Positions 10,921 to 40,205 of a stretch of 43,752 nt of DNA are shown here, piece after piece (within the stretch, counting starts at the first letter, position 1; every line of letters starts with the position of its first letter). The stretch lies in the NCBI GenBank assembly GCA_944358795.1, contig CALVRW010000049.1, forward strand, positions 1 to 43,752. Direction: 5' to 3'. Below the pieces are notes generated by a model that searched no databases, had not been told where the DNA came from, and worked only from the letters and a program-made list of their open reading frames with translations. This stretch comes from an uncultured Bacilli bacterium (GTDB lineage: Bacteria; Bacillota_I; Bacilli_A; RF39; UBA660). A program made the translations under genes and the position numbers.

Positions 10921-12603
10921 TTATTCTTTTACCTTCTGTTTTGACTTTGAACACATACTAGAATCCAACATAATTAATCCAGAATTTATTTCTGTTGGAA
11001 CTTCTACTGCTTCTAAATTTTCATTAAACTTTAAAATCTCATCCCCTATTATCAACACTTTTGGTAAGATGACTTCTTTTAGTGAAGTATTAAAAAAGAA
11101 ACTGCGATACCCGATTTCAATGACATTTGGTAATTCTACTTTCTGCAATTCCTGATTAAAACAAAGGAAATAACTTCCAATAACTGTTGCTTTTGGTAAC
11201 TCTATTTTATTCAATTGAACATTAAAATACAAAAAGTAAGGTCCTACCGATACTACATTTGGTAATATCAGTTCTTTTAAAGTTTCATTACTGTATAAAA
11301 AACAACTTCCAATTGCATTTACATTTCTAATATCAATTTCTTTTAATACTTTATTATGATATAAAAAATAATTTTCTATCTTTGTTAACTTAGGAACAGA
11401 TAGTGTTTCTAAATTTTCATTATAGTGTAAAAAATGGGTTCCTATTGATGTAACCTTTGATAATTCAAGTTGTTCTAATGCAATGTTAGAATATAAGAAA
11501 TCTTTTCCTACAACTATTACATTTGGTAAAATTAATTTTTTTAATTCTCGATTATAATATAAAAATCGATCATCTATCTGAGTGATATCATTATTTTGTA
11601 ATTGAATCAATTGATTTTTTTGATTAATTGTAAGTTCAACCACCGTTCCATCTTCTTCAAACAGTACAATATTCTTATAGTCACGGTCTTTTTTTATTTC
11701 TATTTTATTGATTTTTTTGATTGTCTTTAAAAAACTATCGCGAATCGTTTTATCATATGACGATATTGTTTTTTCTTTTAAATCTAAAATGAAATGTTCA
11801 AAGAGAATGTATCGTTCTTTTTCATATCGTCGCACTTCAAAATTATCAATCACAATATTATTTGGACAATAATAAATATTATTGATTTCCTGATTATATT
11901 GATAAAATTTTCCATCAGTTGCTTCCACATATCCTTTTAATTCAAATCCAGTATCGTCAAATGATTGTTTTAATCCATAGTACTTAGCAAAACTTTCTGT
12001 TAACCCAGGAATAATATTATCTAAGTTGTTAGAGAATGTAGAATCAGGATTTTCTACCTTATGATTATATCGATTTTTAATTGATAAAGTATGCGAATTA
12101 TCTTTTTTAAATTGAATACTAATCACAGATGTTCCATATTCATCTTGTCTTTCCGGATGTGAAAAGTTCTCTCTTTTAATGTCCTCCACATTTTTCTTAA
12201 CTGCAAAGAATACATACCAATTATTTAATCTTCCACCATTAAAAGTACAAAGTTCTTCTTCCTTTATATAATACTTTCTAAAGTTTTTTATTTCTTCTTC
12301 ACTATTACACCGATATAATGTATATCCAGCTTCATCTAATAATTCTTCTGGCGTTTTTTTGACCTGAACTTCTTCTTGTGCTTCTTCTTTATCTTCAATA
12401 AAAGAATAAAGAAAGGATTGAAATTCTTTTTGTTTTTCTTCTTTTATAATGTCATCATATAATGAATGAGTTGGTTCAAAATGGTCTAATAATAATGCGG
12501 AAAGTAATCCTTCTGTTTCTAATAATGTGGGAAATAATTCTCTACATAATTGACTCATTCTTTCTCCATAATGTTTTTTGATAATCTTTAAATCATTTGT
12601 CAT
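10921..12603 (-). CDS. Leucine-rich-repeat protein in Bce locus, paralogue 1
   Basis: 560 residues, no signal peptide or membrane helix, so probably cytoplasmic. Residues 1-~330 form a conserved N-terminal region (begins MTNDLKIIKKHYGE; includes the segment DEYGTSVISIQF near 165 and NRYNH near 185). From about 355 on there are eight or nine BspA-like (LRR_5) repeats of 23 residues, pattern L-x-x-L-x-LPNV-x-x-IG-x-x-FLYxN. The function of this architecture is unknown to me; LRR_5 arrays usually bind proteins. The start is ATG 12601-12603 with AGGTGATAAT upstream. It has its own promoter copy and lies between bceS and bceA. It aligns over its full length with the next gene, a tandem duplication. 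Confidence 0.8.
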   Translation of the reverse strand: MTNDLKIIKKHYGERMSQLCRELFPTLLETEGLLSALLLDHFEPTHSLYDDIIKEEKQKEFQSFLYSFIEDKEEAQEEVQVKKTPEELLDEAGYTLYRCNSEEEIKNFRKYYIKEEELCTFNGGRLNNWYVFFAVKKNVEDIKRENFSHPERQDEYGTSVISIQFKKDNSHTLSIKNRYNHKVENPDSTFSNNLDNIIPGLTESFAKYYGLKQSFDDTGFELKGYVEATDGKFYQYNQEINNIYYCPNNIVIDNFEVRRYEKERYILFEHFILDLKEKTISSYDKTIRDSFLKTIKKINKIEIKKDRDYKNIVLFEEDGTVVELTINQKNQLIQLQNNDITQIDDRFLYYNRELKKLILPNVIVVGKDFLYSNIALEQLELSKVTSIGTHFLHYNENLETLSVPKLTKIENYFLYHNKVLKEIDIRNVNAIGSCFLYSNETLKELILPNVVSVGPYFLYFNVQLNKIELPKATVIGSYFLCFNQELQKVELPNVIEIGYRSFFFNTSLKEVILPKVLIIGDEILKFNENLEAVEVPTEINSGLIMLDSSMCSKSKQKVKE

Positions 12604-12646
12604 ATTATCACCTACATTCCACATCAAATCATTTGTATATTCTACT

Positions 12647-12674
12647 ATTATAATCAAAAAATAGAATCGTGCAA
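12647..12674 (-). promoter_or_regulatory. Promoter of LRR paralogue 1
   Basis: Minus-strand -35 TTGCAC (12669-12674), 16-base spacer, -10 TATAAT (12647-12652). The same arrangement, with a nearly identical spacer, precedes paralogue 2. Confidence 0.55.
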
Positions 12675-12689
12675 AATACTTATCTTATT

Positions 12690-14294
12690 TTAAAGCCATA
12701 CCCATTTCCTTTTTTGCTTTGTTTTATGAGATTCCTCTTCTAATTCATACGAACTCATAAAAGATTCTTCATTTAAATATTGGCTCATAAATAAAAATCC
12801 CGCTCCTACTTCAGCATCATCGGCAATATTTTTATATTTTAATTTTTCATTAAAATATAAACAACAAAATCCTATTTCTTTTACATTTGGTAATTCTAAC
12901 ATTTCTAAATCTTTATTCACATATAAAAAATAATGTCCTATTTCGATTACGTTTTGTAATTGTATTGTTATTAAAGATTCGTTAGAATATAGGAAATGAT
13001 TACCAACTTTTTTTGCAGATGGTAGTCCTGCTCTTTTTAAATATTTGTTAAAATACAAACATTGATCGCCAATTTCAATTACATTCGGTAAATAGATTTC
13101 TTCTAACGCTTTATTATAATATAAAAAATATGATTCTATCTTTCTCGCATTTGGTAATTCTATCTTTTTTAAAACTTGATTAGAAAATAAAAACTGTGCT
13201 CCAATTTCAGTTACATTCGGTAAAATCACTTCTATTAATGAACTATTTTCTCCTAAAAAATCAATTCCAATTTTTTCTACTTTATCATTTTTTAACTTCA
13301 CTAATTGATTCGTATCATCTAATACTAATTCTATCTTATTATCGTCTTGCTGAGTTAGTATAACCTTTTTTCCATGATTCTCCTTTTTTATTTCTATACG
13401 ATCTATTTCTTGTACAGTGTCCAAAAAAGCATCATCAAAGTTATCATATAACGAGATAGTTTTCTTTTTTAAATCTAAAATAAAATAGTCAAAGATAATA
13501 TATCGTTCTTTTTGATATCGTTTTACATCTAAATTATCGATAATAATATTATCTAGGCAATAATAAACATCGCAAATATCTAAATTATATTTATAAAGTT
13601 TTCCATCATTAGCCCTTACATATCCATCTAGTTCAAATTGTAACTCATAACAAGATTGTATTAATCCATAGTATTTAGCAAAGCTATCTGTTAATCCAGG
13701 GATAATATTATCTAAGTTATTAGAAAATGTAGAATCAGGATTTTCTACCGCATGATTATATCGATTTTTAATCGATAAATTGTGAGAATCATCCCTTTCA
13801 AATTGAATACTAATTACTGATGTTCCATATTCATCTTGTCTTTTTGGATGAGGAAAGTTCTCTCTTTTAATCTCATCTACATTTTTCTTTACTGCAAAGA
13901 ATACATAACAACTATCTAATCTATCCTCATCAAAAGTACATAATTCTTCATCTGCTTCATAGTATTTTCTAAATGATTCAATTTCTTCGTCATTATTACA
14001 CTGATATAAGATATAACCTGCCTCATCCAATAATTCTTCTGGTGTTTTTTCTACCTGAATGGCGTCTTTCAAATATTCTTTTTCTCCAATAAAAGAATAA
14101 ATATAATTTTGAAAATCTACTTTTCTATCTTGTTTTATGATATCATCATACAAAAAAAGATTAGGTTCAAAATGGTCTAATAATAATGTTGAGAGTAATC
14201 CCTCTTTCTCTAATATTGTAGGAAACAATTTTCTACATAGCTTACTCATTTTTTCTCCATAGTATTTTTTGATAATCTTTAAATCATTTGACAT
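12690..14294 (-). CDS. Leucine-rich-repeat protein in Bce locus, paralogue 2
   Basis: 534 residues, soluble, with the same plan as its neighbour: a ~330-residue N-terminal region (begins MSNDLKIIKKYYGE; DEYGTSVISIQF and NRYNH conserved) and a C-terminal array of about seven 23-residue LRR_5 repeats (for example LPNVIEIGDQCLYFN). It has fewer repeats than paralogue 1 and a different tail (ends KTKQKRKWVWL). The start is ATG 14292-14294 with AGGTGAAGAT upstream. The strongly matched N-termini suggest a fairly recent duplication and a shared partner, while the repeat arrays have diverged. Position directly downstream of bceS suggests a role connected with peptide sensing, but that is only an inference from context. 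Confidence 0.8.
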   Translation of the reverse strand: MSNDLKIIKKYYGEKMSKLCRKLFPTILEKEGLLSTLLLDHFEPNLFLYDDIIKQDRKVDFQNYIYSFIGEKEYLKDAIQVEKTPEELLDEAGYILYQCNNDEEIESFRKYYEADEELCTFDEDRLDSCYVFFAVKKNVDEIKRENFPHPKRQDEYGTSVISIQFERDDSHNLSIKNRYNHAVENPDSTFSNNLDNIIPGLTDSFAKYYGLIQSCYELQFELDGYVRANDGKLYKYNLDICDVYYCLDNIIIDNLDVKRYQKERYIIFDYFILDLKKKTISLYDNFDDAFLDTVQEIDRIEIKKENHGKKVILTQQDDNKIELVLDDTNQLVKLKNDKVEKIGIDFLGENSSLIEVILPNVTEIGAQFLFSNQVLKKIELPNARKIESYFLYYNKALEEIYLPNVIEIGDQCLYFNKYLKRAGLPSAKKVGNHFLYSNESLITIQLQNVIEIGHYFLYVNKDLEMLELPNVKEIGFCCLYFNEKLKYKNIADDAEVGAGFLFMSQYLNEESFMSSYELEEESHKTKQKRKWVWL

Positions 14295-14340
14295 ATCTTC
14301 ACCTATTTCAATTATATTAATACTTCTTACATATTTCATT

Positions 14341-14368
14341 ATTATAATCAAAAAATAAAACAATGCAA
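14341..14368 (-). promoter_or_regulatory. Promoter of LRR paralogue 2
   Basis: Minus-strand -35 TTGCAT (14363-14368), 16-base spacer, -10 TATAAT (14341-14346), just after the bceS stop codon; duplicated upstream of paralogue 1. Confidence 0.55.
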
Positions 14369-37643: not shown

Positions 37644-38223
37644 TTATAGATTAAAACTTTTTATCTTTTGATTTTGATAAAACTTTTGTAACGACGCTTC
37701 GATATCAATTTTATATCTACGTGTTTTAAGATGCTCACTATTTTTAGAACCATCGCCTTGAATCGTTTCTATCAAATTTCCAAAATTATTTTCTATAATA
37801 TGAATTGACCCAAAATTTGTATCATAGCAAGATATTAATGCAGTTTTAAAACCCATATCATACATTTTCTAATAACAAATGACACAATATCGTACCATAA
37901 CCTTGATTTCTTTTAGATGGAACAACTTGATAAAAAATATGGTCACCGTAAAGTTCAATCGTTTCGTCTATTTCTGGATTTAATCGAATACTTCCAGAAC
38001 CAATAATCTTTTCGTCTTCTATAAACCAGTAATAGATTTCTTTTAATCCTGTTTGATCTATTCCTCGCTTTTTCTCTTCCGTTAATTTTAAATATTCCTG
38101 AAAATTATTTTGTGTTACAAATGGTTTCCAATCAGGATAAAGATTGATAAACTCTTGGTTGTAATCATCGATTTTATCAATATCCAACATTTCAGTTACT
38201 TCTTTTAAATAAATTGAATGCAT
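37644..38223 (-). pseudogene. GNAT acetyltransferase with frameshift
   Basis: One acetyltransferase split over two frames. From ATG 38221-38223 (RBS GAGGGTGATACC) the frame gives 121 residues with the motif A region VVPSKRNQGYGTILCHLLLENV, then a TGA at 37858. A shift of one base near 37860-37866 continues YDMGFKTALISCYDTNFGSIHIIENNFGN, the normal motif B, to 37644. Neither half would be a full GNAT. No slippery sequence longer than AAAA is present, so mutation or sequence error is likelier than programmed shifting. Confidence 0.8.
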
Positions 38224-38246: not shown

Positions 38247-40205
38247 TTATTTTAAATGATACTTTTGTTTAAAACTTTTAATATATCTTTTTCTCATAGC
38301 AGGCATTATTTGTGAAGCTATCTCTACTGAAACATCATTCATACTCATAGAAGTAGTATCTAGTAAAACGGAATCTTCTACACTTGTTTCAAATAATTCT
38401 TTTAAATCATTTAAACTTTCATTATATTCATTTATATTATCAACATTTAAAAAAGTTCTTTTTTCTAATGCCAAATTTGCGTTATAATCTCTTTTTAATG
38501 AAATTAAAGGTTCAGCATATGTTATAACGAGAAAATCTATTAATGCTCTTGATATTACACGATATTTCTCTCTTGCTTCTTGATATAGTTCTTCTAGCAT
38601 ATCGCCTCTAACATATCTTCTATAATTCCAAATTTGTCTATCGTTTATCGATCTATCAATTAAAATAATTTCATTATCAGAATTAAGTGCGTCTTCTAAC
38701 TGTTTTATAACCTCTTCTATTATTATCATATTTAATTCAGTAGAACTTACATCTTTATATTTTGGTCTTAATTCTTCTTTATAATATCTAGATGTTGTAA
38801 ATTCTTCAATTATAGTTGTATTAAAACCACCTTTTTTAAAGAAATCATATAAATTATTTATCGTAGTAGTTTTACCTGTTCAAGGTGTTCCACTAAATTC
38901 AATAACAAATGGTTTTGGTAATGAACATAATGCTTTTAATTTTTGTAATTCTACTTTTTGAGCATGTAGTTGTTTAAGTTTTTCATAATATTCACGATTA
39001 TCATCAAAAATAGTATCTCTTAAATATAAATCTTCTTTTTCATTAAATACAATATCTAATACATTTTTAAGTCTTTTAAATATAGGTAAATTTTCATCTT
39101 CGCCATAAATTAAACTTTTATATACACCTGTATAATACCAACTTTGTTGATTTTCCCCTCTTTTAAATGCGGAAAAATCTCTTTTACCACTTTTTTGAAA
39201 TTTAAGCATTAAATCTTCTAAATTATTTATCTTATCTGCACAAATCACAACCTTATTTCTTAAAGATAACGTTTTAGTTTCTTCAATCGTGTGTGCTTTT
39301 CTTTCTTCCCAAGATAATGATTTATTTGGCTCTGATGCACCCATAACTAAATTTGCAACTTCATCACCAAATTCTCTTTTTATATCTTCAATAGTATAGT
39401 TTGTATCTTCTACAACATCATGTAAATAACCAGCAGCAATGACTGCGTCATCATAGCCATATTCCTCTAATAAAATACCTACACTAATTAGATGTATTAT
39501 CATAGGTTTATCAGGTTCACTTTTTCTAATTTGCCCCATATGAGCATTTATTGCAAATATTTTTGCTTTTTCTTTTAAATTCATAATTCCGTTTATCTCC
39601 AAATACTTTTTGATAAATTCCCATTTATTCTTTAAGATTACTTCAACATCTTGCTTAAATTGTTCGAAATCCTTATCATAACAATAATTTTTAGCATAAC
39701 CACTACTACCATACTTTTTAACTAGATAGTTATAAGAACGTTCAACCATTTGATACAAATCTAAATCTGGGTAATGTTTTATCGTATATGAATGAGTTCT
39801 CTTTAATACCGATTCAATACTAGTTGTTCTATCAGCTGATGAAATTATTTTACCATAATCACTTCTAGGTTCATATTCTAATGATGCTCTATGATCTTCT
39901 ATTGCTTCTTTTATCATTCTTCTTTGCTCATCATCAAAGAACTTTTTCATCATTTCATTTTCATAAAATAGTTTCGCAGATAATATTTCATGATTATCTT
40001 TATCTATATGGTGTGCGATATCATGAAAAGAAGCAATCGTATACACCATATCAAGATTAATATGTGGAAATTGGTTAGCAAATTCTAAACTTCTTTTAAC
40101 AACATATTGAATATGTTTAATGCCATGACCTATATCATTTTTTTCATATATTGGTAATATTTGTTGTTCAATATAATCTTTTAATTGCTCATTTACTATA
40201 CCCAT
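38247..40205 (-). pseudogene. HD - HD - P-loop ATPase/kinase fusion interrupted by UGA in Walker A
   Basis: From ATG 40203-40205 (GGGAG upstream; an in-frame GTG at 40212-40214 is less good) the frame is open for 441 residues, ends at TGA 38880-38882 and continues in the same frame to 38247, about 652 codons in all. Domain 1: HD phosphohydrolase (HGIKH near 26, ASFHDIAHHID near 60). Domain 2: RelA/SpoT/MESH1-like HD (AINAHMGQ, IIHLISVG, GYLHDVVEDT, ADKINNLEDL). Domain 3: P-loop kinase; the Walker A reads SGTP-stop-TGKTTTI, so a glycine codon GGA probably became TGA, and LIDRS/TYAEP segments follow as in deoxynucleoside-kinase-like proteins. Without read-through the protein would stop inside the ATP loop. 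Function unknown. Confidence 0.78.

Follow-up and report, generated by a model that had tools for sequence, protein, structure and literature searches.

A three-domain HD, HD_4 and P-loop gene with an in-frame UGA in Walker A in an uncultured Bacilli bacterium

The window, i.e., the whole stretch of 43,752 nucleotides analyzed here and the entire contig C49 of its genome, was found to carry a three-domain gene broken by a single in-frame stop codon. It is probably the recently interrupted copy of an accessory gene that low-GC gut bacteria (class Bacilli or neighbours) carry on the chromosome, and the intact form would act on nucleotides. The genome (G000) is a draft metagenome-assembled genome (MAG) of 1.17 Mb in 57 contigs. 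Translation from the ATG at 40205 to the TAA at 38247 gave one minus-strand frame of 441 codons, the UGA, 210 codons and the TAA, with the UGA at 38882-38880 as the only interruption. The first-pass annotation had proposed a single frame of about 652 codons joining an HD domain, a SpoT/MESH1-like HD domain and a P-loop domain, and had given no strand; translation and Pfam searches agree with it. The frame did not arise by chance, since homologues are collinear with it across 652 amino acids.

Table 1. Features of the interrupted gene, in window coordinates.
Feature	Position	Strand	Basis
HD1 domain, residues 1-205, YpgQ/YedJ-like HD	39591..40205	-	Pfam HD 3.9e-13; residues; fold matches
HD_4 domain, residues 206-335, SpoT/MESH1/Lmo0812-like	39201..39590	-	Pfam HD_4 5.6e-17; 4yf1 profile match; residues
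Helical linker, then first strand of P-loop domain, to Pro441	38883..39200	-	Model pLDDT 91; conserved in alignments of relatives
In-frame UGA, codon 442, within Walker A	38880..38882	-	Arg in aligned intact relatives
Rest of the AAA_28 P-loop kinase-like domain, otherwise intact	38250..38879	-	Pfam AAA_28 1.6e-6; residues; constraint
TAA, stop position shared with the gene of intact relatives	38247..38249	-	

Pfam HD (PF01966) was found at residues 30-128, HD_4 (PF13328) above its cut-off at residues 216-332, and AAA_28 (PF13521) in the part of the frame that follows the UGA. The gathering threshold of AAA_28 is 27 bits; the window sequence scores 28.9 bits even without the first strand, and an intact homologue scores 31.6. 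Metal and catalytic residues are complete in both HD domains, i.e., H27, H31, H61-D62, H72, H105 and D125 in HD1 and R227, K228, H238, H262-D263, E266-D267, D324 and N328 in HD_4. Those of HD_4 (R/K, H, HD, ED, D, and N) were invariant across 20 homologues. Downstream of the UGA the window sequence retains TGKTT, E468, DRS at 517-519, R572, and R583. Intact relatives have the P-loop, the DRS motif and the LID-like arginines, and thereby the combination of Walker A and DR(S/H) typical of deoxynucleoside and thymidylate kinases (dNK/TMK), which in the window copy is interrupted by the UGA.

Nine intact collinear genes encoding 650-654 residues were identified among the 386 family genomes searched (G022, G161, G252, G182, G320, G232, G146, G304, and G092). 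With four further MAGs (L064, L065, L066, and L069) the intact three-domain gene is present in at least 13 other assemblies, which confirms that the three domains co-occur in one gene. The related records, mostly gut MAGs, carry titles of uncultured Bacilli or Clostridia. A maximum-likelihood tree built on the HD_4-AAA part placed the window copy with four intact fusions (support 100/99), and the nearest protein is that of G146, with 88% identity.

The family occurs most often as a two-domain HD_4-AAA gene that starts at a Met and encodes about 445 amino acids. In most fusions this Met marks the point where the parts join (YMEVN-x-I-MDIKEKAK), and HD1 occurs as a stand-alone protein of about 217 residues in many genomes. 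These three observations indicate that HD_4-AAA is the older and commoner unit and that HD1 was fused in front of it later. HD1 then decayed in several lineages. HD1 remnants ahead of an intact HD_4-AAA gene in L043, L044, L045, and L046 imply that HD1 has also been lost again. HD1 is promiscuous and was also observed in tandem copies and in fusions to a Nudix domain, a MnmL/YtqA radical SAM protein and a methyltransferase (L158:2778-3992, L159:2518-4068, L161:2980-4287, and L160:3763-5135).

In a sample of 395 genomes of the class, HD_4-AAA genes were confined to the family of the window organism. A wide spread in the class was thus not seen in this sample, though the records L080 and L082 bear the names of other taxa. 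The contig L080, titled Patescibacteria group bacterium RA.bin82, has an HD_4-AAA gene in which TGA stands at Trp positions (L080:4322-5629), and code 4 yields about four times as much long open reading frame on it; the bin may contain a Mycoplasma-like organism under a wrong label, or contamination. Phages, plasmids and IMG/VR gave no match to the three-domain or HD_4-AAA protein, as the listed hits span one domain each, and a phage or plasmid origin was ruled out. The three-domain protein had no PADLOC hit that would link it to a defence system. Elsewhere in the window, two tandem similar genes of 578 and 557 codons (10921-14363, minus strand) share TNDLKIIKK.YGE.MS.LCR.LFPT / SNDLKIIKK near their start.

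The intact G146 protein was modelled by AlphaFold with a pLDDT of 91. The HD_4 part of the model matches Lmo0812 (4yf1, TMt 0.91), RelH and MESH1, and 4yf1 matches the family profile with an E of 3e-46. Solved fold relatives of HD_4 include complexes of MESH1 with NADPH and PAPS. Lmo0812 is 43% identical to HD_4 in the fold match, with every motif residue (R-K, H, HD, ED, D, and N) invariant. In contrast to Lmo0812, MESH1 and RelH-type proteins, HD_4 here has a conserved helical linker and then a P-loop domain behind it, and sometimes HD1 ahead of it. Small alarmone hydrolases of the SAH type are mostly described as single-domain proteins, whereas the chains found here are multi-domain and 445 or 652 amino acids long. 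A literature search for the HD_4 and AAA domain pair turned up nothing relevant. The three-domain family is real and little described, and is a variant of the SAH-type hydrolases.

The best fold matches of the P-loop part were deoxynucleoside and thymidylate kinases (8puu, dCK, 3tmk, and 1e2d), in agreement with the deoxynucleoside-kinase-like domain proposed at first, and the P-loop, DRS and the arginines of the LID-like segment are common to these enzymes and the third domain. The third domain differs from them in being fused to hydrolases and in falling under the TIGR00041 cut-off; the dTMP kinase profile gave 16 bits against a cut-off of 83, and the likeness rests mainly on fold. Matches of the P-loop part to SRP54 and a designed TIM protein were discarded as P-loop or compositional likeness only.

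A separate model of HD1 was closest in fold to 2pq7, 2pjq and YpgQ (5dqw), with a TM of about 0.5-0.6. The YpgQ/YedJ proteins (5dqv/5dqw, 3gw7; PRK10119) share the HD fold with HD1 (TM of about 0.6 to 5dqw), with H, HD, and D ligands similarly spaced, and HD1 has the YpgQ-type metal ligands at H27/H31, H61-D62, and D125. However, the identity is just 16-18%, 2pq7 ranks higher, and HD1 scored about 23 bits against a PRK10119 cut-off of 286. YpgQ is a (d)NTP hydrolase (PMC8177086).

The UGA is located inside Walker A (SGTP-UGA-TGKTT), as first annotated. The accompanying statement that Walker A needs Gly at this position did not hold: the position is a free x of GxxxxGK[ST], and every aligned intact relative has Arg there, encoded by AGA, AGG, or CGA, and by AGA in the two nearest relatives. 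A change from GGA to TGA is therefore unsupported. A single base change in the conserved Walker A arginine codon would instead have produced the UGA. No relative was found with UGA at this position.

The sequences on either side of the stop were found to be equally constrained. When G000 was compared with its two nearest relatives, amino-acid changes private to G000 were seen at 38 of 430 positions before the UGA and 17 of 221 after it (Fisher p = 0.66), and the codon-position pattern of substitutions was equal in the two parts (p = 0.47). At the 76 AAA positions that are invariant in ten other sequences, the stop is the only difference in G000. Upstream of the stop, G000 departs from four positions invariant in relatives (I97M, H160Y, P239L, and P314S), and the HD part could thus also be under relaxed constraint. 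Conservation is as high after the UGA as before it, so the interruption is either recent or an error, as had been suggested from the intact look of both flanks. An old pseudogene was ruled out, there being no surplus of changes downstream of the UGA.

Breakage was found to recur in the family. In the HD_4-AAA gene of G387 (L183, G387:C17 about 60213) a frameshift falls inside Walker A, after GTPRTGK, a few codons from the stop of the window copy. A TAG is located in the linker in L081/G254 and near the start of the three-domain gene in G262, L071 is frameshifted, L084 has a frameshift and a further nonsense codon, and the gene of G263 ends soon after HD_4. The protein encoded by L077:4377-6221 has three domains, with both HD domains intact and a degenerate P-loop lacking Walker A. 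Some of these breaks may be MAG errors. As the family is prone to breakage, nothing marks out the stop in the window as special. Two breaks fall inside Walker A (G000 and G387), but their closeness was not counted as evidence, since a rough reckoning (about five breaks over 445 codons) gives a pair so near each other a chance of about 0.2. The gene is read as an accessory one that is readily lost, the chief alternative being error.

An ordinary nonsense mutation of recent origin, or else an assembly error, is the most likely cause of the stop. Read as a stop, the UGA would end the product after Pro441, leaving a 441-amino-acid protein predicted to have both HD active sites and to lack the kinase. 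The window copy would then either keep hydrolase activity alone or be a young pseudogene that may be heading for loss. That the UGA is instead a consensus or assembly error, and that the cell has an intact gene, is a minority possibility that deserves attention. The genome is a MAG in 57 contigs, there is no relaxation downstream of the UGA, and several broken relatives are MAGs as well. The GNAT acetyltransferase gene that adjoins downstream (37644-38223, minus strand) is also frameshifted, into two overlapping open reading frames, so that two adjoining genes of the window are broken. However, substitutions in a consensus are rare at reasonable assembly depth, and true decay is common in the family, as seen from truncations and from HD1 remnants with many stops.

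It is highly unlikely that the UGA is decoded, by readthrough, a suppressor or an altered code, and the full protein made. Constraint persists on both flanks, and the contig L080 with its HD_4-AAA gene uses UGA at Trp positions, but RF2 (prfB) was found in the genome above its profile cut-off, UGA terminates other genes within the window, each of the 88 Trp codons counted there is TGG, and the position in question is Arg rather than Trp and UGA in no relative. Recoding as in table 4 or 25 was rejected on the presence of RF2 and the stop usage within the window. Two genuine genes, the second starting at 38729, are barely credible. An ATG open reading frame of 160 codons does exist there, and proteins made up of HD_4 alone, e.g., Lmo0812, are frequent elsewhere. 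Relatives, however, carry a single gene in one frame, no homologue starts at that residue, and the 160-amino-acid protein would have no Walker A or P-loop, which excludes a split at this site. A further proposal, that a new bifunctional enzyme couples alarmone or nucleotide hydrolysis (HD1 and HD_4) to P-loop phosphorylation and that its kinase half has been selectively switched off in the window copy, and independently in G387, G263, L077, and G254, with the hydrolase left working, is improbable.

The intact gene, of which the window copy is probably a recently interrupted version, encodes a single chain made up of a YpgQ/YedJ-like HD domain, a SpoT/MESH1/Lmo0812-like HD_4 domain and a P-loop kinase of dNK/TMK-like type. 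Judged by homology, the intact protein is likely a nucleotide or alarmone hydrolase combined with a nucleoside or nucleotide kinase. The HD domains are predicted to hydrolyse (d)NTPs or 3'-phosphorylated nucleotides, e.g., (p)ppGpp, and the P-loop domain to phosphorylate a nucleoside or nucleotide, in housecleaning or salvage. A gene of the uracil-DNA-glycosylase superfamily immediately precedes the fused gene or overlaps it (G320 and G161; L146:6857-7558 and L148:4721-5497), and a homologue is located upstream in G393 and G151, and at L043 and L046. The two genes possibly form an operon, and the genomic context fits with nucleotide housecleaning.

Elsewhere, the P-loop family is joined to other domains. 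In L151:1592-4216, L152:2623-4038, and L150:1682-3100 the P-loop domain carries GSPRAGKTT/GTPRAGKTT and is joined to a CYTH-like domain, a label that is a reading of the sequence without a Pfam hit, and in L151 also to a dGTPase-like HD domain. These three fusions adjoin an NrtR-type Nudix gene and a HAD-like gene, in an uncharacterised nucleotide-metabolism cluster. The CYTH-like-AAA_28 relatives in the bacterial family (GxPRxGKTT) resemble CYTH-AAA_28 proteins such as TTD14, which we take to be an AAA_28 member, in pairing P-loop and CYTH; TTD14 differs from the three-domain family in having no HD_4. Drosophila TTD14 binds GTP and phospholipids (PMC4624897).

The stop codon in itself is of minor interest. 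An SAH-type hydrolase followed by a dNK/TMK-like kinase, often with an HD hydrolase in front, points to a combined hydrolase and kinase enzyme, the substrate of which is testable in the homologues. The recurrent breakage of the gene in gut bacteria with small genomes suggests that selection on this accessory nucleotide enzyme is weak or changing.
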